From a virus, in IMG/VR virus record IMGVR_UViG_3300006921_000132, positions 1-25,563 of that record: a stretch of 25,563 bases of DNA; one strand, given 5' to 3'. A program made the position numbers and the translations under genes. Each line of letters opens with the position of its first letter. Within the stretch, counting starts at the first letter, position 1. The notes beneath the pieces are model-generated. The model was not told where the DNA came from and did not search any database. It worked only from the letters and a program-made list of their open reading frames with translations. Below, piece after piece: positions 1 to 15,952 of the stretch.

Positions 1-3000
1 AAATAATGCTTTTTGTAAAGCGTTAAATATAATGTTTTGAATCATACCGTAATAAGTAATTTTAGTCATTTTGTCTAAACGATCACCTCTGCCGGCTATC
101 AAGTCTTGTAAATTTCTTTTTATAATTCGGTTATACTGCATTGGCGTATTAGCAAATGCTAACATAAATCTACCCAAGCTACTTGCTTGTTGTTCAGATA
201 TTCTATCTGGTCTGCTTGATTGCTGCGTTTCTTCTGTAATTTTCATAAAATCCGTAAATGCTTTTTCTTTTGCAGCCTTTTCAGATAATCCTTGTTTTCT
301 GTAGGAGTTAAATCTATTCCTGTACATTGTTGCGCCACCTGTTGCAATTGCAAAACTATCAGCCATTCTTGTTAATACAAAACCTTTATTAAGCATTAAA
401 GCTATAACACCTTGTACACCACCTTTTTGCTGAGCTAATGCTAATTCACTTTCATTTATATTTATTTTATTCCCTCCTCTTCTACTTTGTAAGTATTCTG
501 AATTAAATAAAGTATTAAAATCTGTCCAGTATTGTTTTTGATTTGCAAAAGCTTTAGCCGCTTGTAATGGATTATTATCTTTAAAATTTAAATAGTTTAT
601 ATTAGATATAGTCTGTAGCACAGCTGATCTAGTATTTAAAAACATAATAGCACCAACTGAACCATTAATCCAATCATTCCATTTTTCAACTGTTTCGTTA
701 GCCCCCCATTTTCTATTTGAACCAGATTTCATTCTAGCCAATGTTGATTTTAAAGTTTTGACATATTTAGGACCATATGCAGCCTCTAATTTAAATAAGT
801 TTTCTTTACTAAATATTTGGTCAACATTCTTTTGCCAAACTTCTAAATGCTTCGTTCTTTTAGTTGTATTTAATAAATCAACCATGTCCATTGCAATATT
901 ACCTGCAACCCAACTTTCTTTAGGCTTTGCATATCCATCGCCTTTTGTAATTTTTATTATTTCATTAGCAAATGTATGCAAGTCAGCATTCTTTTCAACT
1001 TCTTTTAATAATTCACTTTTAACTTTTTTACTTATGCCTGGAATTTCATAACCTAATTTATTCCACATATACACTCTTACAGCCTGTTCTTTTGTAAATA
1101 CTCCACCTTCAGTAAATTGTTTTAATGTTTTAGGAACATTACTCAATTGTTTTTTTATTGCTTTAAAATCATTTTTCAATCCCATTGCTTCATTAGTCAT
1201 TCTTTCTACAGCTTTATTATATGGTTCATATAATACTTTGTCGTAAAACTCTAATTGCTTTTCTCCTTGTTTTCCTCTAGCTAATGTTTTGTGCATCAAT
1301 CCCGCAAAATCTTCAGCGCCTACAGGTATGAAATAATCACCAAAATCTGTTTTAGCTTGTTTACCTCTAGCCATTGCTGTTGCGGCACCAAATACAGATT
1401 CTTTTTTAATACCAGTAGATTTTTCTAAAAAGCCATTAAATTGTTTTGAAATATTTTGTTTTGAAAATTTAGCAGTTTGTTCTTCTCTTATTTCTTTATT
1501 TTTAGTTTCTTTTCCTTCTATAACTTCAACAATATCTGTTGTTTTACCTTTAGAATATTTAGATGCTGTTCTACCTTGCTCTACAGATATAGGTAATGTT
1601 TTATCTAATCTTTTTCTTGCTTGAGCAGGTGTTATTTTACCAGCAACTATATCTGATATTAAATTATATTGATTTTTTACAACAGTAGCATTTTTTCTTA
1701 AACTAGCAGGCACTTCCACATTATATTCTTTTGCTTTTGATATACCGTTACCGTTTATTATATTATTAGGATTAATAACTTTACCGCCAAAAAATTCATT
1801 AAAAAATCTAGTATCTACACTTGGTATTTTAGTTTTTGTATCACCATTTTTAACTTTATTCCAGGCCTCTCTAACTATTGGGTGCAATGATTTTTTTGCT
1901 TCCCATACTGTACCATCTGCTAATCTATATGTGCCATCAACTATTTTTTCTGTTTCTTTTGATATAATGTATTGTCTATAATTTTTCTTAAGCCAATCAA
2001 CCATTATTTTTTTAGCTTCAGGGCTTTTAGCTTCAGAAACATCTTTTATCATTAAGTTAAACTCCCCGTTTTGTAATACATGCTCAAATCTATTTGATTT
2101 ACCAACACCAACTTCACGAGCAATTGCTTTTGCTAATGATCTATTTAAGCCACCACTTGCATTTTGATTATATATTAAATCCCACGCGGCTCTTTCTTCT
2201 ACTTTAAATAATTTAGCAACATCTTCAACATACTTTTCAATTGCTTTTTCAGTTAAAGCTTCTTTGCTTATATTTTCTTTAGTTATTCTTTTAACACCCG
2301 CAGCTACACTTTCTTTAGGTTTAACCCGAGGGTTGGTACCCCCATGCTCTATTTCTTTTGTTTTAGGAGCTTCTGCTTCAGCTAATCTACTAAGTATTCT
2401 TTGTTGAAAAATATTTATGTTAGATCGACCCACTGTAGCGCCTGATATGTCAATAATAAAACCTGACTTAAGTCTTTCTTGATTAGCCTCTTTGTTTCTG
2501 CTTGCTATGTCTTTACCCATAACAAAGAAAGAACCTTTCTGACCATTATTTTCATATCTAGCCCCCCATGAAACTAAATTATTTGACGCATATAAATCAT
2601 ATAAAGTTGGTAATAATTCTTTAGGAGCGTTTTCTATAAGTGTAAAATGTGCCGTTTCTTGTTCTTTAGCATTTTTAAAAGATCCTTTAGAGCCAAAACC
2701 AAACTCTCTCTTTTTCCCTATTTTTTGTTGTTCTTTACTTGAAAAGAAAACATCATGCTCTTTTTGAAACTTTTCAGCTATTCTTGCTTTTTCAGTTGCA
2801 GAATATAAATCTTTATTTTTTTGACCAATAACAGCGTCAATCATAGCTTGATTGAACAATGTTTTAATAAATCTTTCTTTTGTATTTTGAACTTTAAAAA
2901 ATTCTTTTATTTTATTATTTGATTCCCCTCTAATATTTAATCTATTGTAAACAGTAACACCATTAGCCCCAGGATTTTCAGTATAGCTAGCTTTGCCTTC

Positions 3001-6000
3001 TTTAATAGCAAGTAAAGCCATTTCTGTTTTTGTTGCTCTACTATAACCCTGTGAACCAGGATTTTCACTATTATAGCCTTCACCTCTTGCTTTCTTTAAA
3101 TATTTAGACTTAGGATTTGCATCTGCTTCTTTTACAACAAATAATGGTTCTCTACCTAATTTTTGTGAAAACTTTTCAGCTTGAACATAAAATGATAAAG
3201 GCAAACCTTTTGGATTTTTTATAATGCCAGGCATTACAGCATTAAGAAAAGTATCATAATTTTCTTCACCAATTTTGTTTTTAAATTCTTCAAATAATTC
3301 TTTTTCTTTTAATAATTCTTTTCCTAGTTCTTTTCTAAATTCTTTACTTTCTGGTGATAATTTTAAATCTAATAATCTTTCAGAAATTTTTACAGCTGCG
3401 TCAACAAACTTGTTTCTTAATGGTGTTCCTTGATCTAATATAGCTTCACCATTTACTTTAAGATTTCTTTGTATTATAGAAGGTGTACCGTTACTAATTC
3501 TAGATACTTCACTTCTATTACCAAAACTTACGTTAATAGCGTCTTCGATATTTTGTTTTTCTGCGGCTAGTTCTTTAACTCTAATATCGTCTATGCTTGT
3601 AGTTCTACCTGCTTCAGCTAGTTTTTCTTGTTTACCATATAAAGCGGCACCTCTTCTACCAATAGTATTATATATATATGTTGTAAAATCTATTTTTTTA
3701 CTGGTCCTAGGGTCTCTAGCTCTATAGTTTCTAGCAATAGTTGTGAAGGCTTCATTAACAAAATCTTCTGCTTCTTTTTGTTTTACTGTTCCTTTACCTA
3801 CATTATATCCAATAGCCGCTAAAGCTGTATTTGTATATTGATTTTTAATAGCCTCTATTTCTTTTCCTGTAAGATTATCAAAACCTTTTTTAGCCATATT
3901 AACAGCTAATTCATTTATATTTCTTTTTGAAAATTTTGCTTCACCTGTTTTAATATCTATACCTGATGTTTTTACTTCAGCCTCAAATCCAGCAAATTTT
4001 TCTTCTAACGCCAGTTCTAAATCCTCTTTGTTTTTTCCTTTTGCTTTTTTAATTTTAGCTCTTAGTTCAGCAGCGCTAAACTGAGTTTCTAAATCTTCAA
4101 CTTTTTTTATTTGGTCTTTAAATTCTTGCTCAATTCTTTTATTTAATATTTGATTGCCAGGGCCCATATCCCTGTTTTCTTGTATCTTAGCTTTTAGTTT
4201 TGCTACGCCTGTTTTCTTATCTGATTCTAATTCTATTTTTGAAGCTTTGCCTTCACCTTTAAGACCTTTTACAGGTGCATCTTTAGATATTGCTTTAGCT
4301 GCTTCAATACCTAATGTTTCATTTTTAGAATAGCTTTTTATTAAATTAAATAATTGCTTACCAGTTCCAACACCAATTTCAAGATTTTCAAATCCTCTTT
4401 TTCTCATGCCAGGAATAAAATCTAATAAAGAATTCCCAACATTTTCTTTAAAAGCAATTTCTCCAGTTGCTATAGCTTCAGACAGCGACGTTAAATATTC
4501 TTCGTAGTAATCTCCTTTAGCTTTTTCTTTCCCAGTTTTACTGTCATACCTATACGATTCATCTATCCTATCTTGCACAACTTTTCTTTGTTCAGGTGTT
4601 AACTCATTAAGAACGTCGTCAATTATTTTAATGCCTTCTTTATTTATTTTACCATCCTCACCTTTTAAAACATCTCTTAAAACATGGTGTAATACTTCGT
4701 GTTTACCTGTTGTTATTGTTCTTGTTCGTAAAGCAAGCTGTTTATTTATAACCATTTTTTGTGTAGCAGGGTTATAAAAAGCAAATTGATTTCTTACATC
4801 TCGTGATTTTAATCCTGTACCGTTATATATTTCTTGAAATTCTTTTTCTGATTGAGCCTGTTTAAGACCTTTGGCTTGCCCTGTAACTCTTAATATATCT
4901 TTTGTAAAAGCAATATCTTCTTGATATTTTTTATTTACGTAATCTTCTATAGATTCTTTAAGTTTTTTATGACTTTCTCCTTCGCTTAACTCTTTAAAGT
5001 TTTCTTTTAAGTTTTTTAATTGTTCTTTTTCTGCATCTGTTTTTTCTGATTTCATTTCAAGACCTTGAATCTTGTAAAAATTGTCATGCAATTTGGACAC
5101 ATGCTCATACGCCTCTTGTCTTAATTTTCCATTATTAAAATCAACTTTATAATTAGGGTTGCTATTTAAATATTCTTGTATTTGTTGCGCTTTAAACTGC
5201 TGAAACTTCATTATATCCATTCCATCTTTACCTTCCGCTATTTTTCTTCCTCTAGCGCCTAAAGAATTAAGAACATATATAGGGTTTACATTTGAAAATT
5301 TTCTACTTTCTTTTTCAGTTAACTCTTCGCCTTTTAATAATTTTTGCCCAACACCATTAGCATCCGCTTCATTTACAAAATAGTGTTCATTACCTTTTTT
5401 TCCTTGCGCAGACTCTATTGTTTTTTTAGCGGTAACTAAAGCTAATTTATTTTCTAAAATTAATTTATTTGTTATGGCTTCACTTTGTTGCTCTTTTGCT
5501 TCTTGTTCTGTAATTTTACCATTTTTTTGGTTTGATTCAATTTCATTTAACTTATTTTGATAAGCTTTATTAATATCTTTTTCTAATGTATTTTGTTTAT
5601 ATCTTTTATCGCCCTCAGTAAATTTATCAATTCTATTATGGTCAATACTATAATAATTTGCAGCTCCTTCTGATTTAGCATCCCTACCTTTCATTCTAAG
5701 AACGTCTTCACGCATACTATGATACAGGTTATTGAAACCTTTTTGGGACATTGGAATATTTTTTGTACCACTCAACAATGTCATTTTAACAAACTCCGCC
5801 GTCCAACTTTGTAAAAGCTTTTGACCAAAATAATTAGAATAATTAGGATCATTTTTATCAACTTCTATAAGCTTCATAAACTCATCAGAGTCTGTCATTA
5901 ATTGCGCAAAATGATAAACAGTAGAACCTGAAGCACCACCTGCAATTACATTAGTGGGGTTCATATTGTAGTGTATCATTTTATGAGTTGCTGGCATAAA

Positions 6001-8151
6001 AAACTTAGACTTAGGGTCCATTAATCTACCAACAATTGCTCCTCCTATTTTATTACCACCACCAAGCGCTCCACCAAACAACGCACTCTGCTGTATTTGT
6101 TCTCTATTTTCATCTTTTAATAATGATAAAGTCACAAATAAAGCCGCTTCATCAACTGCGCCTAAAGTAAATTTAGTTGCGCCTCTAGTAATACGGTTGC
6201 TATATAATACACCTCCTTTTAAAGCTTTATCAGCTTTATTTATTCCTTTAGAAATTGCATTACCAGAAAGTTTTCTTGTAGCATATACTTCTCCTGCAAA
6301 CTTAGCTAAATCAACAAATCCATCACCAATATACCTCATATTGCCAAATCCTTCATATAATCTTTCATCTGCTTGTTTTTGGTCTACATATCTAAGGCTA
6401 GTATTCTTATTTATAGCTGCATCAAAAAATCTTACTGCTTCTTGTTTACTTTCTAATTTTTCATTAAGCCCTAATGTTCTACCTGCGTTATCTAGAACAC
6501 CACCCAAAAATGTATCTCTATCTAATTGTATAGGGTCAATATTCATGGCTACAGCTTTACCAAATGCTAAATATTCTTTTAAAGCATTATTAAAATTATT
6601 AGCATTAGGAGTTGTACCGGCTATAGTAGTTAAATTTTCAGGTAGTTCATTATTTTCAAAAATGCTTTTTAAATTTCTTAAGTCCGCATTAAAATTAGTA
6701 TCATCCCCAAAAAAATCAAGTATATCAGCCATAGCCCTTTGGCCTGGATACTTAAATGTTTTGTTTTTAAAGTTTTGTTCACCTGTTTTTGTTATGTCTC
6801 CATAAGCCGCTTTAGCCGCTGCTTTAAGATTAGAATAAGCCCTTGATAAACCGGTTTTTAGCATGTCTACTTCAGTGGTTTCTAAAATTTCTGTAGATCT
6901 TTCTTGAATTTCCAAAGCATCACCTGAAGCTTGGTCTAAAGAAACTACATTGCCTTTATTAGGGCCCGATACTTCATATAATTTTTCAGGCGCATTATCC
7001 ATATAAGCTTGAAAAATAGGATTGTTTTCTAATTCTTTTCTTTTTTCTGGAGAAGCTGTTTCATAATTTTTACGTAAATCTGCAAAGATTTTTTCATTAA
7101 ATGGTAAACGGCCGTAGCTGTCTTGCTCAACATAAGTATTAAACTTGTTTTGATCACCAAACTTTATTAAATCTTCAGCATTTTCTTTATTTGTTAAAAT
7201 ATTATTATAAATTGACCTAAGTGTGTTTATATTAAAACTTTTAGTTTTATATTTTTGATTTCTTGCTGTTCTTCCCTCATCATCATATGTAATAACAAAA
7301 CGACTACCATCTCCCACTTCATTCAAATTTTCTTCGCTAAAAATATATGGATTACTTGATTCTCCTATTGACATTCCCGCAAGCTTATGTAAAACATTAT
7401 TACCATCAAATTTTACCCTAGAGTAAGGCTCGTTATATAACTCTGAGTCATCGTCAGAAAAATTATATTTGGTATTACTAAGTGAAGAGGCCAATTGTTG
7501 GGTCAGGGGGTTTACTTGACCGGCAAGCTTTAACATCTCCTCCTCTTCTGTCATCGTGCCCATACCACCACCCTCAATCATTTTTTGTAAATAAGGATTA
7601 GAAACTTCTGAAAAACCTGGCATTAATTCTTCAAGTAATTTATTTCTATTTAATAATTCTTTAGGGTTTTGCGTTGCTGTAAGTAAACTAGCATATCTTT
7701 CAGGATTAGCTGCTATTTTTTTAGCTATATCATCATAATCAAAACCTGACTCACCGCTTAAAGTACTAATATAATCTTTAAGTTTTTTTTCGTCTTCTTC
7801 ATTTAATTCTGAAATAACATTTTCATCTTTATTTCCGAATTTTTTTCTAATATTGTTAATTTTTTCTAAATCCAAAGAACCAGGATCCGAAGTAGAGCCC
7901 GTACTGCTTGTATTGTCCGACCCCGCAACCGCAGTCTCCTTTACAGGGTCTTTTGTCTTTACCTCTAGATCTGCACCAAAATTTGGATCAATATCAACAG
8001 GCTTTTGATCTGTTGGCTGAGGATTATTATATTGTTCAACCCTTTTTATTTCTGGGTTTTTTTGCAAGTAATCGTCTATTGATAAATCTAATTCTAAAGC
8101 TTTTCTTTCTATGTCTTGCATAGAAAATGTTACACCATTATATTCAAACAT
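1..8151 (-). CDS. Giant multidomain virion protein, C-terminus beyond the left edge
   Basis: An uninterrupted minus-strand frame from ATG at 8151-8149 to base 1 (2,717 codons, no in-frame stop; checked line by line). The product starts MFEYNGVTFSMQDIERKALE and has an acidic, low-complexity N-terminus to about residue 110. Residues about 690-715 are glycine-rich and hydrophobic (FGGALGGGNKIGGAIVGRL), possibly membrane-active. A zincin motif HEVLHH lies at 1151-1156, a sigma-70 region 2-like stretch at about 1430-1510, and AKFSK(R/Q)NI elements at 1405 and 2227. From about 2498 the sequence becomes strongly patterned and alpha-helical (FLNTRSAVLQTISNINYL, FMLAFANTPMQYNRIIKR, TYYGMIQNIIFNALQ), like the C-terminal regions of giant proteins I recall from marine phages. 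No DxDGD RNA polymerase motif is visible. Position after two presumed ejection proteins suggests it is packaged and injected; the polyvalent-protein class is an alternative. Confidence 0.85.
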   Translation of the reverse strand, partial: MFEYNGVTFSMQDIERKALELDLSIDDYLQKNPEIKRVEQYNNPQPTDQKPVDIDPNFGADLEVKTKDPVKETAVAGSDNTSSTGSTSDPGSLDLEKINNIRKKFGNKDENVISELNEEDEKKLKDYISTLSGESGFDYDDIAKKIAANPERYASLLTATQNPKELLNRNKLLEELMPGFSEVSNPYLQKMIEGGGMGTMTEEEEMLKLAGQVNPLTQQLASSLSNTKYNFSDDDSELYNEPYSRVKFDGNNVLHKLAGMSIGESSNPYIFSEENLNEVGDGSRFVITYDDEGRTARNQKYKTKSFNINTLRSIYNNILTNKENAEDLIKFGDQNKFNTYVEQDSYGRLPFNEKIFADLRKNYETASPEKRKELENNPIFQAYMDNAPEKLYEVSGPNKGNVVSLDQASGDALEIQERSTEILETTEVDMLKTGLSRAYSNLKAAAKAAYGDITKTGEQNFKNKTFKYPGQRAMADILDFFGDDTNFNADLRNLKSIFENNELPENLTTIAGTTPNANNFNNALKEYLAFGKAVAMNIDPIQLDRDTFLGGVLDNAGRTLGLNEKLESKQEAVRFFDAAINKNTSLRYVDQKQADERLYEGFGNMRYIGDGFVDLAKFAGEVYATRKLSGNAISKGINKADKALKGGVLYSNRITRGATKFTLGAVDEAALFVTLSLLKDENREQIQQSALFGGALGGGNKIGGAIVGRLMDPKSKFFMPATHKMIHYNMNPTNVIAGGASGSTVYHFAQLMTDSDEFMKLIEVDKNDPNYSNYFGQKLLQSWTAEFVKMTLLSGTKNIPMSQKGFNNLYHSMREDVLRMKGRDAKSEGAANYYSIDHNRIDKFTEGDKRYKQNTLEKDINKAYQNKLNEIESNQKNGKITEQEAKEQQSEAITNKLILENKLALVTAKKTIESAQGKKGNEHYFVNEADANGVGQKLLKGEELTEKESRKFSNVNPIYVLNSLGARGRKIAEGKDGMDIMKFQQFKAQQIQEYLNSNPNYKVDFNNGKLRQEAYEHVSKLHDNFYKIQGLEMKSEKTDAEKEQLKNLKENFKELSEGESHKKLKESIEDYVNKKYQEDIAFTKDILRVTGQAKGLKQAQSEKEFQEIYNGTGLKSRDVRNQFAFYNPATQKMVINKQLALRTRTITTGKHEVLHHVLRDVLKGEDGKINKEGIKIIDDVLNELTPEQRKVVQDRIDESYRYDSKTGKEKAKGDYYEEYLTSLSEAIATGEIAFKENVGNSLLDFIPGMRKRGFENLEIGVGTGKQLFNLIKSYSKNETLGIEAAKAISKDAPVKGLKGEGKASKIELESDKKTGVAKLKAKIQENRDMGPGNQILNKRIEQEFKDQIKKVEDLETQFSAAELRAKIKKAKGKNKEDLELALEEKFAGFEAEVKTSGIDIKTGEAKFSKRNINELAVNMAKKGFDNLTGKEIEAIKNQYTNTALAAIGYNVGKGTVKQKEAEDFVNEAFTTIARNYRARDPRTSKKIDFTTYIYNTIGRRGAALYGKQEKLAEAGRTTSIDDIRVKELAAEKQNIEDAINVSFGNRSEVSRISNGTPSIIQRNLKVNGEAILDQGTPLRNKFVDAAVKISERLLDLKLSPESKEFRKELGKELLKEKELFEEFKNKIGEENYDTFLNAVMPGIIKNPKGLPLSFYVQAEKFSQKLGREPLFVVKEADANPKSKYLKKARGEGYNSENPGSQGYSRATKTEMALLAIKEGKASYTENPGANGVTVYNRLNIRGESNNKIKEFFKVQNTKERFIKTLFNQAMIDAVIGQKNKDLYSATEKARIAEKFQKEHDVFFSSKEQQKIGKKREFGFGSKGSFKNAKEQETAHFTLIENAPKELLPTLYDLYASNNLVSWGARYENNGQKGSFFVMGKDIASRNKEANQERLKSGFIIDISGATVGRSNINIFQQRILSRLAEAEAPKTKEIEHGGTNPRVKPKESVAAGVKRITKENISKEALTEKAIEKYVEDVAKLFKVEERAAWDLIYNQNASGGLNRSLAKAIAREVGVGKSNRFEHVLQNGEFNLMIKDVSEAKSPEAKKIMVDWLKKNYRQYIISKETEKIVDGTYRLADGTVWEAKKSLHPIVREAWNKVKNGDTKTKIPSVDTRFFNEFFGGKVINPNNIINGNGISKAKEYNVEVPASLRKNATVVKNQYNLISDIVAGKITPAQARKRLDKTLPISVEQGRTASKYSKGKTTDIVEVIEGKETKNKEIREEQTAKFSKQNISKQFNGFLEKSTGIKKESVFGAATAMARGKQAKTDFGDYFIPVGAEDFAGLMHKTLARGKQGEKQLEFYDKVLYEPYNKAVERMTNEAMGLKNDFKAIKKQLSNVPKTLKQFTEGGVFTKEQAVRVYMWNKLGYEIPGISKKVKSELLKEVEKNADLHTFANEIIKITKGDGYAKPKESWVAGNIAMDMVDLLNTTKRTKHLEVWQKNVDQIFSKENLFKLEAAYGPKYVKTLKSTLARMKSGSNRKWGANETVEKWNDWINGSVGAIMFLNTRSAVLQTISNINYLNFKDNNPLQAAKAFANQKQYWTDFNTLFNSEYLQSRRGGNKININESELALAQQKGGVQGVIALMLNKGFVLTRMADSFAIATGGATMYRNRFNSYRKQGLSEKAAKEKAFTDFMKITEETQQSSRPDRISEQQASSLGRFMLAFANTPMQYNRIIKRNLQDLIAGRGDRLDKMTKITYYGMIQNIIFNALQKALF
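1450..1473 (-). repeat. AKFSKQNI element, copy 2 in the giant protein
   Basis: Residues 2227-2234 of the giant product, again after a charged linker (VIEGKETKNKEIREEQT) and before a new helical region (KQFNGFLEKSTGIKKESV). Compared with copy 1 at residues 1405-1412, seven of eight residues match. The codons differ in places, so this looks like a conserved peptide, not a recent DNA duplication. Confidence 0.5.
3622..3864 (-). other. Sigma-70 region 2-like stretch inside the giant protein
   Basis: Residues about 1430-1510. The order of features follows sigma region 2: a helix with YTNTALAAIGYNVGKGTVKQ, then an EAEDFVNEAFTTIARNY segment corresponding to the DLvQEgf..l..a helix (E1462, D1463, E1467, F1469), then a basic RARDPRTSKK turn, and KIDFTTYIYNTIGRRGAAL, corresponding to the FsTYa...IR..i recognition helix with aromatic residues F1489, Y1492 and Y1494. 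TTSIDD follows about 15 residues later, like the S-hD element seen after sigma region 2 or 3 in many factors. I saw no convincing region 4. Resemblance was judged by eye. Confidence 0.42.
3916..3939 (-). repeat. AKFSKRNI element, copy 1 in the giant protein
   Basis: Residues 1405-1412 of the giant product. The same octamer with one change (R to Q) recurs at 2227-2234. It follows a Lys/Glu-rich linker and precedes the sigma-like stretch by about 20 residues, so it sits at a likely domain boundary. Repetition suggests a linker or processing signal, but two copies are few. Confidence 0.5.
4471..4701 (-). other. Zincin (HExxH) metallopeptidase region inside the giant protein
   Basis: Residues 1151-1227 of the giant product. 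HEVLHH at 1151-1156 supplies the two zinc-binding histidines (H1151, H1155) and the catalytic glutamate E1152. Downstream, DYYEEYLTSLSEAIATGEI has E1217, E1218 and E1225, spaced 62-70 residues from the second histidine and in the EE-hydrophobic-TxxSxAI pattern I associate with phage gluzincin-like domains, where the third ligand is a glutamate. The approach helix (GKHEVLHHVLRDVL) is consistent with the active-site helix. Likely roles are virion protein processing or degradation of a host target after ejection. Activity is inferred from the motif only. Confidence 0.58.
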
Positions 8152-8165
8152 AATTAATTATTTAT

Positions 8166-10112
8166 TTATTCTGCTCCTGGTAACTGTGTGCTAATATAGG
8201 TATTATAAGCAGCTATATTGTTATCTCTATATTTTTTCATAGCTTCGTTTAAGCTACCACTATTAGTCTTTATAAAATCAAATAAAACATTCTGGCCGCC
8301 TTTGTTTCCAACAAATTTAATCCATTTGTCCATTGGCTGACCTTTAGCATTTAATCTTTTTAAACCATCTGGGCTAGCGTATTCTTGTAACATGTACCTA
8401 TCATAACCCGCTGAATAAGCATTTCTAGCATATTCGCCAGAACCACCCGCTTCCGTTGCAATAGCATCAAAATATTTTCTCATACTTTCTGGATTATATA
8501 AATTAAATGATAATGTATCATTTTCAACAGGTATTGAGTCAATTCTAGTCACTACGCCTTGTTCATTTTTAATTTCTTTTTCAATTGTTTTAGGTTCAAA
8601 ATAAAGTTTAATTCGACCATCTCCGCTAAATTCTACTCTAGATGCATTTTCTTTTCCACCTCTATAAGTAAACTCAGCATTTATAAATGAATCACCAAAT
8701 TCTTTTAAAGCTTCTTGTTGTTCAAGTTTTAAATTTGCTTCAGAGCTAGGCGTCCCCATAGACCCATCATCCATTTGGAATGCAACAACACCGTCAGTAT
8801 ATGAAAACTTAGAAAAATTAGAAGGCATCTTTATATTTTTAATCACCTCTGATTGAGTATCTACAAAAGCATTTACGTTTATTGCAGTTTCTTGTCTAAT
8901 TTTTTGATTTAAATATGCGTCAACTTTGTTTGGATCATTTCTATTTTTTCCGCTTGGGGCTTCAACAGTTTTTCTATTAGCTTTATTAACTAATCCCATA
9001 TCCCTTAACTCTTGCATATAAGACTCTTCTACAATTTGTCTTTTCCCATCTTCTACACCTTTTTTAACAAGATTCCAATCAACGTCATCGCTACCATATC
9101 TTTTAGCATATGTTTCATCACCTATATCAAAAGGCTCGTTAGCTATTCTTTTTATTTCGTTTTCGGTAAAATTAAATCCTTTTAATTTTTTTGATAAAAT
9201 ACTAATCTTATTTGCTTCACTGATGTTAGCATGATTATTATATTCGTCATTTATAAAATCTTTGCTCATTTGGCTTAATTCACCATCTTGAGCAATACCC
9301 ATTCTTCTTCTAACTATTCCTAAAGCTTGGTCTTCAGAAATTGCAATTTCACTTCTATTTTTATATTTTGCATCTGCCATTATATTATCTACAGCAGCAT
9401 TTGTTTCATTAAAAATTCCTTTTACTGTTTCATCATGCTTAGCATCAATAATATCTCTTTGTTCTTTTCCTGAAGCTGAAAATATAGATTGTATTTGTGC
9501 TGTAGTAAAAGTTTCAGATTTCATTTTGCCAGGATTTTCATCATCTGGAACTTGCACTGTAATACCTCCATCAAATTTGCCACCTGCGTAATTAAAATTA
9601 GGATTAGCAGACCCATTTTTAATTTGATCATAAATAGCTTTCTTTATTTTAAATTGTGGGTGACCTCTATCTTCATTTTCCATTATATCAACTTCAGGGT
9701 CATAAGTATAATTAAAAGCTGTATTAATACCTGTAACAGCATCTGTAAAACTTTGTGATGCTTCTTGTAAATCTAAATCACCTAGTCTTCTTTCTTTTGC
9801 TTTTACAAATAAACCACCTAATCCTTTTTTAGTGGGTATATCAACTTTTAAAGCATCATCGTAGAATTGTCTCAACGCACCCTGCACTTGGTCTTTAGTC
9901 ATTTGACTATTAGCAACCGCAGCATCTAATTCTTCTTTTAACTCAGATCCTTTATCATATATACCTTTTTCATATTCTTTTCTATCTGCAATAAGGTCTT
10001 GACCTTTTTGAAATTCTTCTTCAAAGCCCTTTTTAAAAGTAGTTAAAAACGCTTGTGTTCCTGCCATATAGTTTGGCGCATTAAAGAATTTTGGATTTTC
10101 GTATGCTCCCAT
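8166..10112 (-). CDS. Probable internal virion (cargo) protein, function unknown
   Basis: A 648-residue hydrophilic protein without signal peptide or obvious catalytic motif. Residues 1-85 are helical and charged (FLTTFKKGFEEEFQKGQDLI, EYEKGIYDKGSELKEELDAA). The central part alternates helices with short strands, including a beta-looking stretch (GGITVQVPDDENPGKMKSET). A later part has a strand-rich area (RVEFSGDGRIKLYFEPK), and the C-terminus carries GQPMDKWIKFVGNKGG and a helical tail. It starts 2 bases after the 286-residue gene's stop and ends 14 bases before the giant gene's start, so the three are probably one translational unit encoding ejected proteins. The cargo assignment is from position and architecture only. 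Confidence 0.6.
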   Translation of the reverse strand: MGAYENPKFFNAPNYMAGTQAFLTTFKKGFEEEFQKGQDLIADRKEYEKGIYDKGSELKEELDAAVANSQMTKDQVQGALRQFYDDALKVDIPTKKGLGGLFVKAKERRLGDLDLQEASQSFTDAVTGINTAFNYTYDPEVDIMENEDRGHPQFKIKKAIYDQIKNGSANPNFNYAGGKFDGGITVQVPDDENPGKMKSETFTTAQIQSIFSASGKEQRDIIDAKHDETVKGIFNETNAAVDNIMADAKYKNRSEIAISEDQALGIVRRRMGIAQDGELSQMSKDFINDEYNNHANISEANKISILSKKLKGFNFTENEIKRIANEPFDIGDETYAKRYGSDDVDWNLVKKGVEDGKRQIVEESYMQELRDMGLVNKANRKTVEAPSGKNRNDPNKVDAYLNQKIRQETAINVNAFVDTQSEVIKNIKMPSNFSKFSYTDGVVAFQMDDGSMGTPSSEANLKLEQQEALKEFGDSFINAEFTYRGGKENASRVEFSGDGRIKLYFEPKTIEKEIKNEQGVVTRIDSIPVENDTLSFNLYNPESMRKYFDAIATEAGGSGEYARNAYSAGYDRYMLQEYASPDGLKRLNAKGQPMDKWIKFVGNKGGQNVLFDFIKTNSGSLNEAMKKYRDNNIAAYNTYISTQLPGAE

Positions 10113-10114
10113 AA

Positions 10115-10975
10115 TTAAAATGTTGCTTTTCCAGCGTTTGCAAGCGCACCGCTGTATTGATTATAAAAGTTAAAATCTGCTCTAGTTCCGGTAAAACCTC
10201 CCTTTTTAGCTTTTCCATAAGCACCAAATTTAGGTAAGTTAATTTTAGTACTTGTATTATCGCCTAGGTATTGATTATATGCAGCTGTACCGCCCACAGC
10301 ACCTAATAAACTACCAACTGATCCTAATGCTTGACCTGTCATTGCGCTTGCTTGGCCTTGTAATTGTGCTGATTGTCCTTGCATATTTTGTTGTTGACCT
10401 GCTAATCTATTTAGTTTAGCAACATCTCTTTTTTCTTGAGCGGAGAATTGGAATGCTCTACCTTGTGCTTCTGCTTGTTGCACTCTTGCGGCTTCTCTCA
10501 TTTGCAATTGTTGCATTTGTTGTTCACCCTGTGCTCTTAATCTTGTGTTTTGAGCCTCTTGTTGTTCTATACTTGCGGCAATATTAGATTTACTTCTTGA
10601 TGCCGCTTGCGCTAACGCTGTAGCACCACCCGCTCCTGCACCTGTTGCCCTTAGTGTATCTAATGTTGTTGCTAATGATAAATCTTGTTCTCTAGCCTTC
10701 ATTTCTGCAGCTTCAGTAGCAACTTGTAAATTTTCAAATGGATTTGTAATCATACTGCTTAAATCCTTAACATTAGAATAGGGATTTATAACCGCTTGTC
10801 TATTGTTTTCTAAATTTGTTATTTGTCTACCTAAAGCTGCGGCTTGTCGCCTTGCTCTTCTTGCTGCACGTCTGGCTTTTCCAGCGCCAATCAATCCACC
10901 AATAAGACTAATACCTGCGCCTATTAAAGAACCGCCTCCGCCGCCGAGAAATTTCATGAAACCACCTTCTGCCAT
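10115..10975 (-). CDS. Internal virion / ejection protein, glycine-rich N-terminus and coiled coil
   Basis: Probable packaged protein ejected at infection, analogous in architecture to small internal core proteins of T7-like phages. Residues 9-32 form a glycine/isoleucine/leucine stretch (LGGGGGSLIGAGISLIGG) able to insert in a membrane, followed by a strongly basic patch at 33-43 (KARRAARRARR). Residues about 85-205 are an Ala/Gln/Glu/Arg-rich helix, mostly coiled coil (SIEQQEAQNTRLRAQGEQQM). A second small-residue segment at 212-238 (TGQALGSVGSLLGAVGG) may be another membrane-active helix, and the tail is Lys/Gly/aromatic-rich. DTLRATGAGAGGATALAQAA at about 106-125 is a motif I recall from equivalents in marine phages. 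It sits between the muzzle halves and two large presumed ejection proteins, supporting this role. Confidence 0.72.
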   Translation of the reverse strand: MAEGGFMKFLGGGGGSLIGAGISLIGGLIGAGKARRAARRARRQAAALGRQITNLENNRQAVINPYSNVKDLSSMITNPFENLQVATEAAEMKAREQDLSLATTLDTLRATGAGAGGATALAQAASRSKSNIAASIEQQEAQNTRLRAQGEQQMQQLQMREAARVQQAEAQGRAFQFSAQEKRDVAKLNRLAGQQQNMQGQSAQLQGQASAMTGQALGSVGSLLGAVGGTAAYNQYLGDNTSTKINLPKFGAYGKAKKGGFTGTRADFNFYNQYSGALANAGKATF

Positions 10976-10981
10976 AATTTT

Positions 10982-12241
10982 TTATTTTGATGATATTACA
11001 ACTTCACTTAATGTTGTAAATAATTCTTGTTTACTATTTTCTATTGTTTTTAATTTAGTATGTAGATACATTCCTTTTATACCTGATACATCATCTCCAA
11101 ACAACACTTCGTCTTCTTGACCGGCTATTGAACCATTTTGTAATATTGAAAAATACTTGTTTTCTTTTTTCTTAAACATTGATGGCAATATATAATCAGT
11201 TGTAAAACTATAATCAGCTTTAGCAATATCTACACCTAAATCTGTATAATTTACATCATCTAAATCTGTTTTTATATCACTTGCTGACCAACCTGTTGTG
11301 CCCTCGTAACCAAATGTTTTAAATGTTTTAACTACTGAACTATCTGTATTCATAATCGATGTTATACTAGATTCAGCTGCAGGTTCGCCATAAAATACAT
11401 TATAGTCTGTATTTTTATAATGTGCATATACATTTCCTTTTTTGAAAGTATACATAGTGCCATTTAAAGTAAATCCATCTTCAGGATAAAAAGTATAAAA
11501 ACTAGTCCAGCCCTTTGAAGATTCATCAAACCCAATGGTTTTACTTTGTTCTTTTAAATGTAAAATATATTGGTCTTTTTCATTGTCATACATGCCAATA
11601 AGATTTGTGTTTAACTTAAGATTATCTTTAAAATAATCTCTCATACCTGTATTTGATATTTCAGTTAATCCATCTCTTGTTAACCTTAAAACAACACCTC
11701 TTTTTTTATCTGTAAAATATTTCCTATTACCTTTAACCGCAAAGCTTTCAGGATTTGTGCTTATTCCGTATATACCTAAAAACGTTCTTACTTGTCCAAT
11801 AACTATATTTGATGCTGTTCTTAACGGACTTCCTTCAGCTGTAAATATAAAATCTTTATTTATACCGGCAGCATTACATTTATCTTCTTGTAATATATAT
11901 AACTCGCGATCTTCTGCGTGTAGCTTTTGTATTGAGCCATCTGTTATATCAACCGCTTTTGTAATATTAGCACCAATAGGAAATTGATTTGTTTCGTTTA
12001 CTCCAGTTCTTGAATTATAAATACCAGAATAAATCATTGCATTTTTTCTATTTATAACAGTGTAATCATCATTAGTAGCATAGGCCCTAACGCCTGGCTC
12101 CATGAAAGCTTCATTAAATCCACCTTTTATTCTTGCTTCTTCTATATAATATCTTTCGTTTGCAATATTATCCGTTTCTCCAAAATCAAAACTTTTAATA
12201 AATATAGAGTTAAAATAACCGATTTCTTTTGTTGCTGCCAT
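10982..12241 (-). CDS. Second half of the muzzle/stabilization protein, encoded separately
   Basis: A 419-residue structural protein. The sequence YYIEEARIKGGFNEA (31-45), VRAYATNDDYTVINR (51-65), IYSGIYNSRTGVNETNQFP (70-88), DGSIQKLHAEDRELYILQED (101-120) and VRTFLGIYGISTNPESFAVK (151-170) match, as I recall, the C-terminal part of muzzle-family proteins. In many relatives this lies in the same polypeptide as the preceding gene product. Regular strand-turn repeats are consistent with a beta-propeller-like fold. It starts 33 bases after the previous stop; the spacer is A/T-only, with no Shine-Dalgarno. The N-terminus (MAATKEIGYFNSIFIKSFDF) matches the internal linker of one-piece relatives, so the two gene products probably assemble together. 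It could instead be an independent tail-hub protein. Confidence 0.68.
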   Translation of the reverse strand: MAATKEIGYFNSIFIKSFDFGETDNIANERYYIEEARIKGGFNEAFMEPGVRAYATNDDYTVINRKNAMIYSGIYNSRTGVNETNQFPIGANITKAVDITDGSIQKLHAEDRELYILQEDKCNAAGINKDFIFTAEGSPLRTASNIVIGQVRTFLGIYGISTNPESFAVKGNRKYFTDKKRGVVLRLTRDGLTEISNTGMRDYFKDNLKLNTNLIGMYDNEKDQYILHLKEQSKTIGFDESSKGWTSFYTFYPEDGFTLNGTMYTFKKGNVYAHYKNTDYNVFYGEPAAESSITSIMNTDSSVVKTFKTFGYEGTTGWSASDIKTDLDDVNYTDLGVDIAKADYSFTTDYILPSMFKKKENKYFSILQNGSIAGQEDEVLFGDDVSGIKGMYLHTKLKTIENSKQELFTTLSEVVISSK

Positions 12242-12274: not shown

Positions 12275-15200
12275 CTAATTACAAGGATAACCATCACAAC
12301 CGTTATCATTACCTACCGACTGTATTGCTCCGCCTGAAACATCAACATATTCACCATCAACCATATTATTTGTAATTATAGCACCACTATTAAAAACAGT
12401 TGTTGCCGCAGCATCTGTATATACTAAATCATTAAGCTGGGGAGTTAAACTACTTGATGTATTTGTTGTTGGTCTTTTAATATAAAAGTTTTGACTTGGT
12501 GAATTTGCGCATAAAACGCCACAAACACCAGGTGCACCTCCACTAGAAAATAAAAAGTTATTCCAAAACCAAACACCAATTGTAACAAGACATTCGCCAT
12601 CAGCGGTATTAGAACCGTTTACGCCACTATTATCATTAACTTCAACAACTATCTTATAAACTTTACCAACTTCGGATGCTGGAAATACATGATTATTTGC
12701 CGTAACAGTACCATTTGCGGTATTAATACTAAATTTAGCTTTATGTGTATCATTAGTTTGATTAACACCGGTTGGATCATAAGTAACACTTTTTATACTA
12801 TAAAGTAAATTTAATTGATTTTGCGTAGTGTCTGCGCTTCCATTTGAAGCTGATGTTTTTGTAAAAATTGCAGAAGTTGATGCAAAATGCGCATGGGCCG
12901 CGGTACCTGGTAAAACTAACGATGGTGTTGAATTCGTTACAGATATTAAAAAATCTTGTATTGTAGAATTATTACTACCGTCTTCCGCTTTAATTCTTAC
13001 TGTATATGTGTCGCTTGATGTTCCAAAGTAAGCAAAATTATTTGTTGTTTTAAGTTGCTGTTGATTATTTCCAGCATCTTGTATGTCAAAAAACAAATTA
13101 CCTGTTGTATCTATTTCAGTGTCATTTTTTAATACCTGAACAACTGAATAAGTTATATCTCCGTTAGATATTTGTCCGGGCGCTTGACCATTAAGGCCTT
13201 GATTAAATGTTTGAAGATGCGCTGAACCTACAACATTACCAGCTGTTTGATTTTCTGGTAAATTAGCCGCGGTTGTTCCGTCGCTAAACTTAATACTTGT
13301 TGGTACGCCTGAAGCACCAGGGCCTTGTAATATTTCAGTATTTAATTCTGATATTAATCCACAAGTCACTGTTTCATAATATATATCTAATGCACTTTCA
13401 AATCCTTTTGTTTCCCACACTGAAAATCCAGTTGAACCCTGAAATGTCAACGGTTGTTGATTATTTTGAGTAACAGTTATTGAAGTACCAAAGCCGTCGG
13501 GTAATTCAGCTAATAAAGGATTTTTTCTCCAATTATGAAAAACCATATATGTATGACCTCTTTTTGAATCTGAAGCTGGATTAGTATAAGCAGGATCAAT
13601 TAATTCTAATCCGTGATCTAAAGCTTTACCAACACCAGTAATATTTAAAAGTGGGCTATCAGACATTATATTAACTTGCGCATTAGCAAAAGGGCTGCTA
13701 ATAATTTTTGGATATAAGTCCGTGTCAGTTGGAAATACAGAATTATCATCTTCTGATTGTTCTGTTGTATCTCTAGGAACTTTGTTTACGTTATCTCCGT
13801 GTAATACTAGCCATGTTCTTTTATCATCATTGCTATAATATAATCCTAAATCTGATAAAACATTAGCATTAGGTATGTTATGGATTGCAGACGGCGCATA
13901 TATATTATAATATTCATATTCATTTTGCTTTACAACAATTTTATATGTATACCACCCTGTTGGGTTTGATGCGCTATACAAAACACTTCTTCCATTTGCA
14001 TCTGTTTCAGGTATTTTTTTATTAAATGTTATTTGCAAAGCTTCTCCATTAAAACCTGTAGGTGTGTCATTACCAGTTTTAGCAGGAGCAGCTATAATAG
14101 AGTTTTCAGTATTGTCAGATAAAAATACAGGAGATTGTCTACCATACCTATCAGCTAACACAATACCAACTTGATATTGTCTTCTTGTTTTAATTGTATG
14201 ATAAGGATATTGTTTACTAAATTTTTGTGTATCAGTTTTATCGCTTATAGCTAAAGTGTAATCAAAAGAATAATTTTGTCCAACGTTACCATCATAAGGT
14301 TTATTCTGCGCTCCTTCTTGATAGTTACCATAAACAACTCTATTGCTAATTATTTCTTGTGCTCTTGCTTTTGCAGGCACATTATCATATACTCTTGTTA
14401 ATTGTTGTTCAGGTAATGTTTTATATGGTAAACTACCTTTATAGGTATAATTATATATTTTATCGCTGCTAACACTATTGTCTGTTATATCAAATTGAGC
14501 TATACTTTTTATATCAGGTCTATTAGATTCTTTTATTAATAGTTCTATTTTTTCAATTTCAAAATCAGTTGTTGGTTTGTCAGAAGGCATTTCAATTTGT
14601 AAATTAACATGCGAGGCATCATTAATCATGCTTTCTAGTATTGTTGATTCGGCCGCTGCTAATTCTTGAGCATCAGTTAATCCTTCTGCATTATGTCCGT
14701 CATAAGAATTATTATAAGTTTGAGGCATAAAGCAATGCTGAGTAAAAGGCGATATTAAAGAGTATTCACTATCTTTAAATTGAAACCTATATGCAAATCT
14801 TACAAATTTTTCTTTAAGCCTATCATTTTGATTTAAAAATGTTAATAAAGTATTGTCAGCTTTAGTTATGTTAGTATCTGAAGTAATTGTTAAACCATCA
14901 GCACTTACTGCTGTAACTACACCTAAAAAAGTTGTACCATCATAAATTTCTTGGCCAACATGCGTATCATGTGAAATATTTGCAGTGGCAGTAACTCCTC
15001 TCTCTTCATCTATAACTAAAGTTTTACTAGCGTTAACCGCTCCATTTAATCTTGCTTGTGTTTTTAAAGTTTGCATTCCAAAATGATCCGTGCCATCAAC
15101 TTGTCTCAATACTTTTGGAGCTATATATGGATAATACTTTGCAACAGATATTTTATCTTCATTACTATAATGTGAATTATCATTAATAGCAGTTACAGTG

Positions 15201-15952
15201 TTTATTTTTCTTGGTTGATTTTTATTATCAGTCCAAAACAATAATTCATCAATTACATTTACACCTGTTATTAAAAAATCAGTATCAAATTTTAAAAAAT
15301 TACTAGAGTTATTTATTAATGGTATAGGTGCTGTAGTTCCTTCTTGATAATAATATATATTGTCTCTATGCTTTGAATTACCTTTTACAAAATAGTATAT
15401 TGTGTTTTTACCATTTTTTTCTTCACCATCTGCATAATGGCCAATCACAGTACCAACATCTTCGGTAATTAATAAATCTTCTTCTCTTAGTGTTAATACA
15501 ACACTTGCAGATCCACCAATCGCAGGAGTACCTGTATCTTTACTTATTGTTATAGTATCGCCAACTTTATAACCAGATGATGTTCCGCTAAATGTAACTT
15601 TAGTTACTGTTCCGCCATCTATAATAATATTAACACTTCCGCCAATACCATTGCCGTTTGTTGTAAATCCAGAGGTAACATTAGGTACACCACTATAACC
15701 TGCGCCTGCAGCATTAATTCCGTCTGTTGTATTTGTAGTAACAATCCCTATAGTTCTTTCACCAGATTTAAATGCACCAGTTGTGTAATTTAATTTATTA
15801 CCTAAAATGTTTTGCACAGTACCCACGTCAGAACCTTCAGACTTTGTTACATGGATATTCTGCGCATCAAAATATTCTCCGTTTTTTAATAAACGAGCAT
15901 CAAGGTCTTTATTCATTTTACCTTCTAAAAAGGTATTCTTGATTTCTGGCAT
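12275..15952 (-). CDS. Tail stabilization / muzzle-type protein, N-terminal and central part, with inserted beta domains
   Basis: Large structural protein expected at the end of the short tail. The first residues (MPEIKNTFLEGKMNKDLDAR, then GEYFDAQNIHVTKSEG) are the hallmark of the stabilization/muzzle family of crAss-like and marine phages. Residues about 73-160 look like an inserted glycine/threonine-rich beta domain (GTSSGYKVGDTITIS), and a second beta insert follows around the ADGLTITSDT motif. Core signatures between and after them include DELLFWTDNKNQPRKI, VRFAYRFQFKDSEYSLISPF, and FSVWETKGFESALDIYYET. About 930-1130 is cadherin- or Ig-like (YTVRIKAEDGSNNSTIQDFL). The last 95 residues hold four cysteines (1144, 1148, 1219, 1224) around LVYTDAAATTVFNSG. 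The region that normally continues this family (GFN..GVKAY and YSGIYNSRTGVN) is missing here and found in the next gene. Confidence 0.78.
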   Translation of the reverse strand: MPEIKNTFLEGKMNKDLDARLLKNGEYFDAQNIHVTKSEGSDVGTVQNILGNKLNYTTGAFKSGERTIGIVTTNTTDGINAAGAGYSGVPNVTSGFTTNGNGIGGSVNIIIDGGTVTKVTFSGTSSGYKVGDTITISKDTGTPAIGGSASVVLTLREEDLLITEDVGTVIGHYADGEEKNGKNTIYYFVKGNSKHRDNIYYYQEGTTAPIPLINNSSNFLKFDTDFLITGVNVIDELLFWTDNKNQPRKINTVTAINDNSHYSNEDKISVAKYYPYIAPKVLRQVDGTDHFGMQTLKTQARLNGAVNASKTLVIDEERGVTATANISHDTHVGQEIYDGTTFLGVVTAVSADGLTITSDTNITKADNTLLTFLNQNDRLKEKFVRFAYRFQFKDSEYSLISPFTQHCFMPQTYNNSYDGHNAEGLTDAQELAAAESTILESMINDASHVNLQIEMPSDKPTTDFEIEKIELLIKESNRPDIKSIAQFDITDNSVSSDKIYNYTYKGSLPYKTLPEQQLTRVYDNVPAKARAQEIISNRVVYGNYQEGAQNKPYDGNVGQNYSFDYTLAISDKTDTQKFSKQYPYHTIKTRRQYQVGIVLADRYGRQSPVFLSDNTENSIIAAPAKTGNDTPTGFNGEALQITFNKKIPETDANGRSVLYSASNPTGWYTYKIVVKQNEYEYYNIYAPSAIHNIPNANVLSDLGLYYSNDDKRTWLVLHGDNVNKVPRDTTEQSEDDNSVFPTDTDLYPKIISSPFANAQVNIMSDSPLLNITGVGKALDHGLELIDPAYTNPASDSKRGHTYMVFHNWRKNPLLAELPDGFGTSITVTQNNQQPLTFQGSTGFSVWETKGFESALDIYYETVTCGLISELNTEILQGPGASGVPTSIKFSDGTTAANLPENQTAGNVVGSAHLQTFNQGLNGQAPGQISNGDITYSVVQVLKNDTEIDTTGNLFFDIQDAGNNQQQLKTTNNFAYFGTSSDTYTVRIKAEDGSNNSTIQDFLISVTNSTPSLVLPGTAAHAHFASTSAIFTKTSASNGSADTTQNQLNLLYSIKSVTYDPTGVNQTNDTHKAKFSINTANGTVTANNHVFPASEVGKVYKIVVEVNDNSGVNGSNTADGECLVTIGVWFWNNFLFSSGGAPGVCGVLCANSPSQNFYIKRPTTNTSSSLTPQLNDLVYTDAAATTVFNSGAIITNNMVDGEYVDVSGGAIQSVGNDNGCDGYPCN

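Follow-up and report, generated by a model that had tools for sequence, protein, structure and literature searches.

A putative sigma-70 domain 2-like module in a giant, presumed virion protein of a probable crassvirus relative

The window analysed here, 25,563 nucleotides of viral DNA from IMG/VR record IMGVR_UViG_3300006921_000132, carries on its minus strand a giant open reading frame (ORF) with an internal module that, judged from profile searches and predicted models, is a sigma-2-like domain diverged from sigma-70 domain 2 and not a sigma factor. We draw this distinction because the module scores below the Pfam cut-off, narrow sub-profiles fail to find sigma factors, and region 4 is absent. 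The explanation that we consider best, and to which we incline with modest confidence, is that the giant protein brings a virion-delivered sigma-70 domain 2 (regions 1.2/2.1 to 2.4) into the cell, where it would dock on host RNA polymerase early in infection; the virus may in this way deliver a switch for the host transcription machinery together with its DNA. The features on which this account is built are collected in Table 1.

Table 1. Features of the giant ORF, its sigma-2-like module and the preceding gene block
Feature	Position in window	Strand	Remarks
Giant ORF	1..8151	(-)	2717+ residues, 3' end cut by contig end; presumed virion cargo/ejection protein
Conserved C-terminal region of giant ORF	1..1464	(-)	Residues 2230-2717; common to all relatives used
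TTSIDD linker	3586..3603	(-)	Residues 1517-1522, just past module
Sigma-70 domain 2-like module	3604..3918	(-)	Residues ~1412-1516; AlphaFold2 model, fold and profile searches
FTTYIYNTIGRR, region 2.3/2.4-like helix	3652..3687	(-)	Residues 1489-1500
EDFVNEAF, region 2.2-like helix start	3745..3768	(-)	Residues 1462-1469
HEVLHH, zincin-type HExxH motif upstream of module	4684..4701	(-)	Residues 1151-1156
648-aa ORF between muzzle and giant gene	8166..10112	(-)	Crassvirus cargo protein gene place; by position only
286-aa ORF, glycine-rich hydrophobic start	10115..10975	(-)	Crassvirus cargo protein gene place; position and sequence only
Crassvirus muzzle protein, C-terminal part	10982..12241	(-)	PF25731 E 6.7e-13, PF25729 E 1.1e-10, both above cut-off
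ORF with N-terminal part of muzzle family	12275..15952	(-)	PF25731 positions 4-160, E 1.7e-5
Module versions compared	3559-3954; in relatives L003:7448-7807, L012:7415-7774, L005:4095-4532		

A sequence-only reading of this DNA had placed a sigma region 2-like stretch at 3622-3864, and the stretch is real, lying on the minus strand as residues 1430-1510 of the giant ORF; the module itself is larger than this interval according to the AlphaFold2 model. The motifs EDFVNEAF and FTTYIYNTIGRR fall within the interval as described, but TTSIDD, also assigned to it, lies a few codons outside. TTSIDD resembles the SLDD/SID linker by which region 2 is followed in many sigma factors, and a similar SLD/SID motif occurs in the relatives L022, L053, L067, L073, L020, and L024. 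The same reading had set the module next to a zincin domain, and a position past a zincin-type HExxH motif recurs across the lineage, the module starting ~120-400 residues past HExxH in most giant ORFs where the motif is present.

The least biased test of a link to sigma factors is the six-frame scan with Pfam's own Sigma70_r2 model, which gave a single match in the window, within the module (3655-3783, E 5.4e-4). Across 42 related phage records the same scan returned 17 matches, comprising 11 stand-alone sigma factors of ~255 aa and six giant-ORF modules and none elsewhere, and five of the giant-module matches had E <= 1.5e-3 where about 0.06 would be expected. The curated cut-off of Sigma70_r2 (PF04542), 24 bits, lies above the scores of the window (14.1-14.9) and of the other giants (up to 19.3). 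Searches with a 146-aa stretch point the same way with weak scores: the best match among 24736 Pfam models was Sigma70_r2 (E 0.041), and the best PHROG was an RNA polymerase sigma factor family (E 0.015). Single modules compared with sigma families gave E-values of 6.4e-6 and 2.6e-5 for L016, 0.0035 for L047, 0.0071 for L008, 0.015 for the window, and 0.027 for L001.

A profile of 35 modules (A4), whose members were partly chosen by an F/L-x-x-Y pattern, was run against all PDB sequences, and all 20 matches up to E 10 were sigma factors (best E 4.5e-4). As a check on this pattern-based choice, one entire lineage at a time was left out, the remaining modules were aligned anew, and with the resulting profiles the module was still the best place in 35/35 giant ORFs. 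For the window, the profile made from the modules of other lineages had its best place at residues 1430-1507, with 6.6 bits, a score reached by none of 200 shuffles; the window type is nevertheless among the weakest in this leave-lineage-out test, and for L001 two of 200 shuffles reached the score. Overall, sequence comparison gives statistical support at the family level to homology between the module and sigma-70 domain 2.

Narrower queries had less reach. Run against the PDB, the window-type profile (A3, four sequences) missed the sigma factors and matched an unrelated enzyme best (E 0.009), and the narrow A5 profile likewise found no sigma factor there; hhalign gave no alignment of A3 with A5. 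Single-sequence searches (phmmer against the PDB and tblastn in phages) had no match, and a scan of genome contigs for relatives found none. Region 4 (PF04545), the part of a complete sigma factor that recognises the -35 element and binds the beta flap, appeared in the giant ORFs only as fragments in the zincin region: these partial Sigma70_r4 matches (window 4555-4614, just past HExxH, and L003, L005, and L012) span only 20-30 model positions and were taken as chance.

Predicted structures agree with the profile searches. The AlphaFold2 model built on A4 has helices at residues 1412-1422, 1429-1446, 1458-1475, and 1489-1516, with pLDDT at or above roughly 90 along most of its length, and a VIA-align comparison of the window module lists sigma domain 2 in each of its first 33 rows (Z 7.9 to 5.8), followed by KIX as the first unrelated helical domain (Z 5.8). 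For a second model, based on 14 L050-type modules with the window type left out, sigma factors occupy 49 of the best 50 Foldseek rows and 50 of the best 50 VIA rows, E. coli sigma-70 being the best match (Z 9.3, 2.8 A over 90 residues). Because VIA Z-scores under about 13 can be common among helical bundles, the likeness to sigma domain 2 rests on the uniformity of the match list, and neither model reaches significance by its Foldseek E-values. With this limit, the module has the helical fold of sigma domain 2 in the predicted models.

These results bear on the reading in which the resemblance is convergent helical patterning unrelated to sigma factors. The weak Foldseek E-values and the failure of A3 and A5 to find sigma factors would fit such convergence, but searches of independent libraries, of sequences and of folds, give almost nothing but sigma factors, and this for several sub-lineages; convergence is thus largely refuted, and we regard it as very improbable. 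The sequence-only reading had called for structure prediction and fold comparison, and had named a missing profile match together with an unlike fold as the outcome that would speak against it. Neither came about: both models match sigma domain 2, and the A4 search of the PDB, the Sigma70_r2 scan, and the fold comparisons together indicate homology and a shared fold, not only patterning.

Across the 35 modules the best-kept columns are Y/W 1492 (Y in 31, W in 4), L/I 1497, Y/F 1476, R/K 1500 (R/K in 33/35), and F/L 1489, with the region 2.2-like glutamate E1467 kept less strongly (23/35). These include an aromatic where region 2.2 ends and, in region 2.3, an F/L and a further aromatic. From the alignments and the sigma-70 numbering, we take residues 1492, 1476, and 1489 to occupy the places of Y430, F419, and F427, and D1463, N1466, and E1467 those of D403, Q406, and E407. 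The region 2.3 tryptophan pair W433/W434 of sigma-70 is absent, the window having N1495/T1496; ECF sigma factors also lack this pair. The module version of the close relatives L003 and L012 has kept hardly anything of the acidic motif of region 2.2.

This pattern might suggest an exapted fold, that is, a descendant of sigma domain 2 that now serves as a helical building block for packing, scaffolding, or DNA contact without binding RNA polymerase. Such a role would be in keeping with the great divergence of the module, with the predominance of core-type positions among those kept, with the one version that lacks the acidic region 2.2 motif, and with the absence of region 4. However, the region 2.2 glutamate and the region 2.3 aromatic are among the best-kept columns, and the fixed place past HExxH and the swaps between close relatives described below suggest a selected interaction; we consider exaptation doubtful.

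With the conserved C-terminal region of the giant ORF as query, 127 related places were found in IMG/VR and 80 loci were fetched, and a diverged module sits at the same place in the giant ORFs of over 40 of these loci. The giant proteins of the cultured, more distant relatives Gundel, elemo, Panino, and ctfjg026 have no detectable module. Maribacter phage Panino has, where the giant gene would stand (L098:35408-40897), a gene for a protein of 1829 residues that is annotated as a tRNA methyltransferase, which is unexpected there. The giant protein of L001, an IMG/VR contig, has 2261 residues and shares with the window only the C-terminal region (37% identity; this region also has a weak match to Gundel gp74) and a module island, 130 aa long with 61% identity, between otherwise unrelated flanks. 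L003 and L012 show the converse, many flanking stretches being 80-100% identical to the window and the module versions only 33-38% identical, and L005 carries a third version. Three module versions among phages whose flanks are up to 95-100% identical suggest replacement by recombination. The dN/dS of the module, about 0.32 (window-L001) and 0.37 (L003-L012), shows purifying selection, and because of this ratio, the conserved island, and the version swaps between close relatives, the module is a selected, exchangeable domain.

Two further observations concern the same proteins. L003 has an insert of about 150 residues directly before the module. A second low-identity stretch at window ~2272-2751 (residues 1801-1960) is only 7-20% identical to L003 and L012 between better conserved flanks and is perhaps another exchangeable slot.

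Many related phages also encode, elsewhere in the genome, a sigma factor that is complete, well conserved, and about 250-259 residues long. In L086-L097 this is a highly conserved ~255-residue protein, most copies of which end in SQVLDYL. One such ~255-residue sigma factor had no match in a search of 50,697 phage records. Since module and sigma factor occur in the same genomes, the module might have been copied recently from the phage's own sigma factor gene, but a profile of 12 phage sigma factors has no match in the giant modules; we rejected this origin for that reason and give it a negligible probability.

The separate sigma factor also enters into the idea of a sigma mimic, in which the module binds a host anti-sigma factor, or is a competitor of host sigma that starts no transcription itself, and so shuts down or frees host transcription. 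PhyR, for example, mimics a sigma factor. A lone domain 2, lacking region 4, could fill the sigma site, and the complete phage sigma factor could then take over; we consider this role unlikely.

By analogy, the surroundings of the module suggest a virion protein. The window is a virion gene block with terminase, portal, capsid, and tail genes, muzzle, two medium ORFs, and the giant ORF, the virion structural protein being assigned by position as the major capsid protein, and the order terminase-portal-capsid-muzzle-two ORFs-giant is also found in relatives. The muzzle is of the crassvirus type, with PF25731 and PF25729 above cut-off, and crassvirus muzzle matches are present in 14/14 records tested, at two separate places in 13 of these. 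For the ORF at 12275..15952, PF25731 is under its cut-off in the window and above it in several relatives. The spread of the muzzle family over this ORF and the one at 10982-12241 has the look of a split or rearranged muzzle, and the larger ORF also has a weak cadherin-like match. A family search with the 648-aa ORF gave no match. In crAss001, the muzzle gene is followed by genes for cargo proteins and giant RNA polymerase-associated proteins, which were found in virions by mass spectrometry (PMC10172136). The giant ORF of the window occupies, after the muzzle, the place of these virion RNA polymerase protein genes, and 'structural protein' is the annotation of the proteins encoded there in phages Gundel and elemo. 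The virus is probably a crassvirus-related marine podovirus that carries the giant cargo protein in its virion.

Searches for a virion RNA polymerase gave no match above cut-off. PF00623, an insensitive test for the crassvirus enzyme, found nothing above cut-off; PF00940 had no match anywhere, controls included. The crassvirus enzyme may be too diverged for these models, and the records are incomplete. The window protein showed no polymerase motif of the DxDxD type, and the giants none that was convincing. The giant protein combines an HExxH motif and the sigma-2-like module in one polypeptide, and because the HExxH region has no Pfam peptidase match, HEVLHH is taken as a motif only. Pfam matches to ubiquitin, Phosphorylase, Mis12, and Peptidase_S49 elsewhere in the protein were far under cut-off and were disregarded. 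Many giant ORFs (L056, L068, L046, L029, L047, and others) contain, at residues ~1500-2300, a HAD-type phosphatase-like region, FDFDDTLA.TK...FVLTARPQ...NDFYFADDA.

In the explanation that we favour, the giant protein would leave the virion through the tail, either before the DNA or together with it; we infer this from the position of its gene past that of the muzzle and from the precedents of crassviruses, N4, and polyvalent proteins. Once in the cell, it may be cleaved by the zincin-type domain nearby, and the released module would dock on the beta' coiled coil of host RNA polymerase via its region 2.2-like helix, which would promote early transcription from the incoming phage DNA or displace host sigma. 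Docking soon after entry would be expected because phages must transcribe at once and their polyvalent proteins are believed to enter by injection and to be cleaved by zincin domains of their own (PMC5512222), and because T4 gp55, a sigma with similarity confined to domain 2, works with partners on host RNA polymerase (PMC2988020). Redirection of host RNA polymerase at DNA entry, as the sequence-only reading had proposed, is plausible. A broader scenario, possible but less likely than not, is that in a branch of crassvirus-like marine phages a self-processing giant cargo protein replaces the virion RNA polymerase, that its sigma domain 2 turns host RNA polymerase to early promoters, that the domain is exchanged among close relatives to fit different host polymerases, and that a later-made phage sigma takes over.

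Known virion-borne starters of transcription are whole RNA polymerases (N4, crassviruses, P23-45, and jumbo phages) or modifiers of the host polymerase (T4 Alt). If the favoured explanation is true, a sigma-type domain in the particle would be a third virion-borne answer, testable with a small purified domain, and a function would be in hand for one portion of the giant virion proteins, so far uncharacterised, that belong to a widespread group of marine phages. We found no earlier description of a virion-borne sigma domain in the open-access literature, and the word 'sigma' is absent from the main text of the survey on polyvalent proteins (PMC5512222), the crassvirus structure paper (PMC10172136), and the Crassvirales review.

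With domain 2 of the sigma-70 family (PF04542; ECF, sigma-S, sigma-K, and FliA) the module shares the four-helix arrangement, the order of the 2.1-2.4 features, the region 2.2 glutamate, the region 2.3 aromatic, and an SxDD-type linker, but it stays under the Pfam cut-off, lies inside a protein of 2700+ residues, has no region 4, and lacks W433/W434. The setting recalls crassvirus gp47/gp49/gp50 (PMC10172136), whose giant cargo genes come behind the muzzle gene and a pair of smaller cargo genes; here, however, an HExxH/sigma-2-like protein stands in that place, and no DxDxD was seen in the window protein. Polyvalent proteins (Iyer et al., 2017; PMC5512222) and the N4 virion RNA polymerase are likewise giant multidomain proteins, with a zincin-type HExxH and thought to be injected; N4-like proteins start early transcription, whereas no polymerase domain was found in the giant protein described here. 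For those proteins, in turn, no sigma domain is reported. Finally, T4 gp55 (PMC2988020) is likewise a case of phage sigma similarity confined to domain 2, but it is a small product that serves late genes with gp33 and gp45, whereas the module described here is part of a presumed virion protein.
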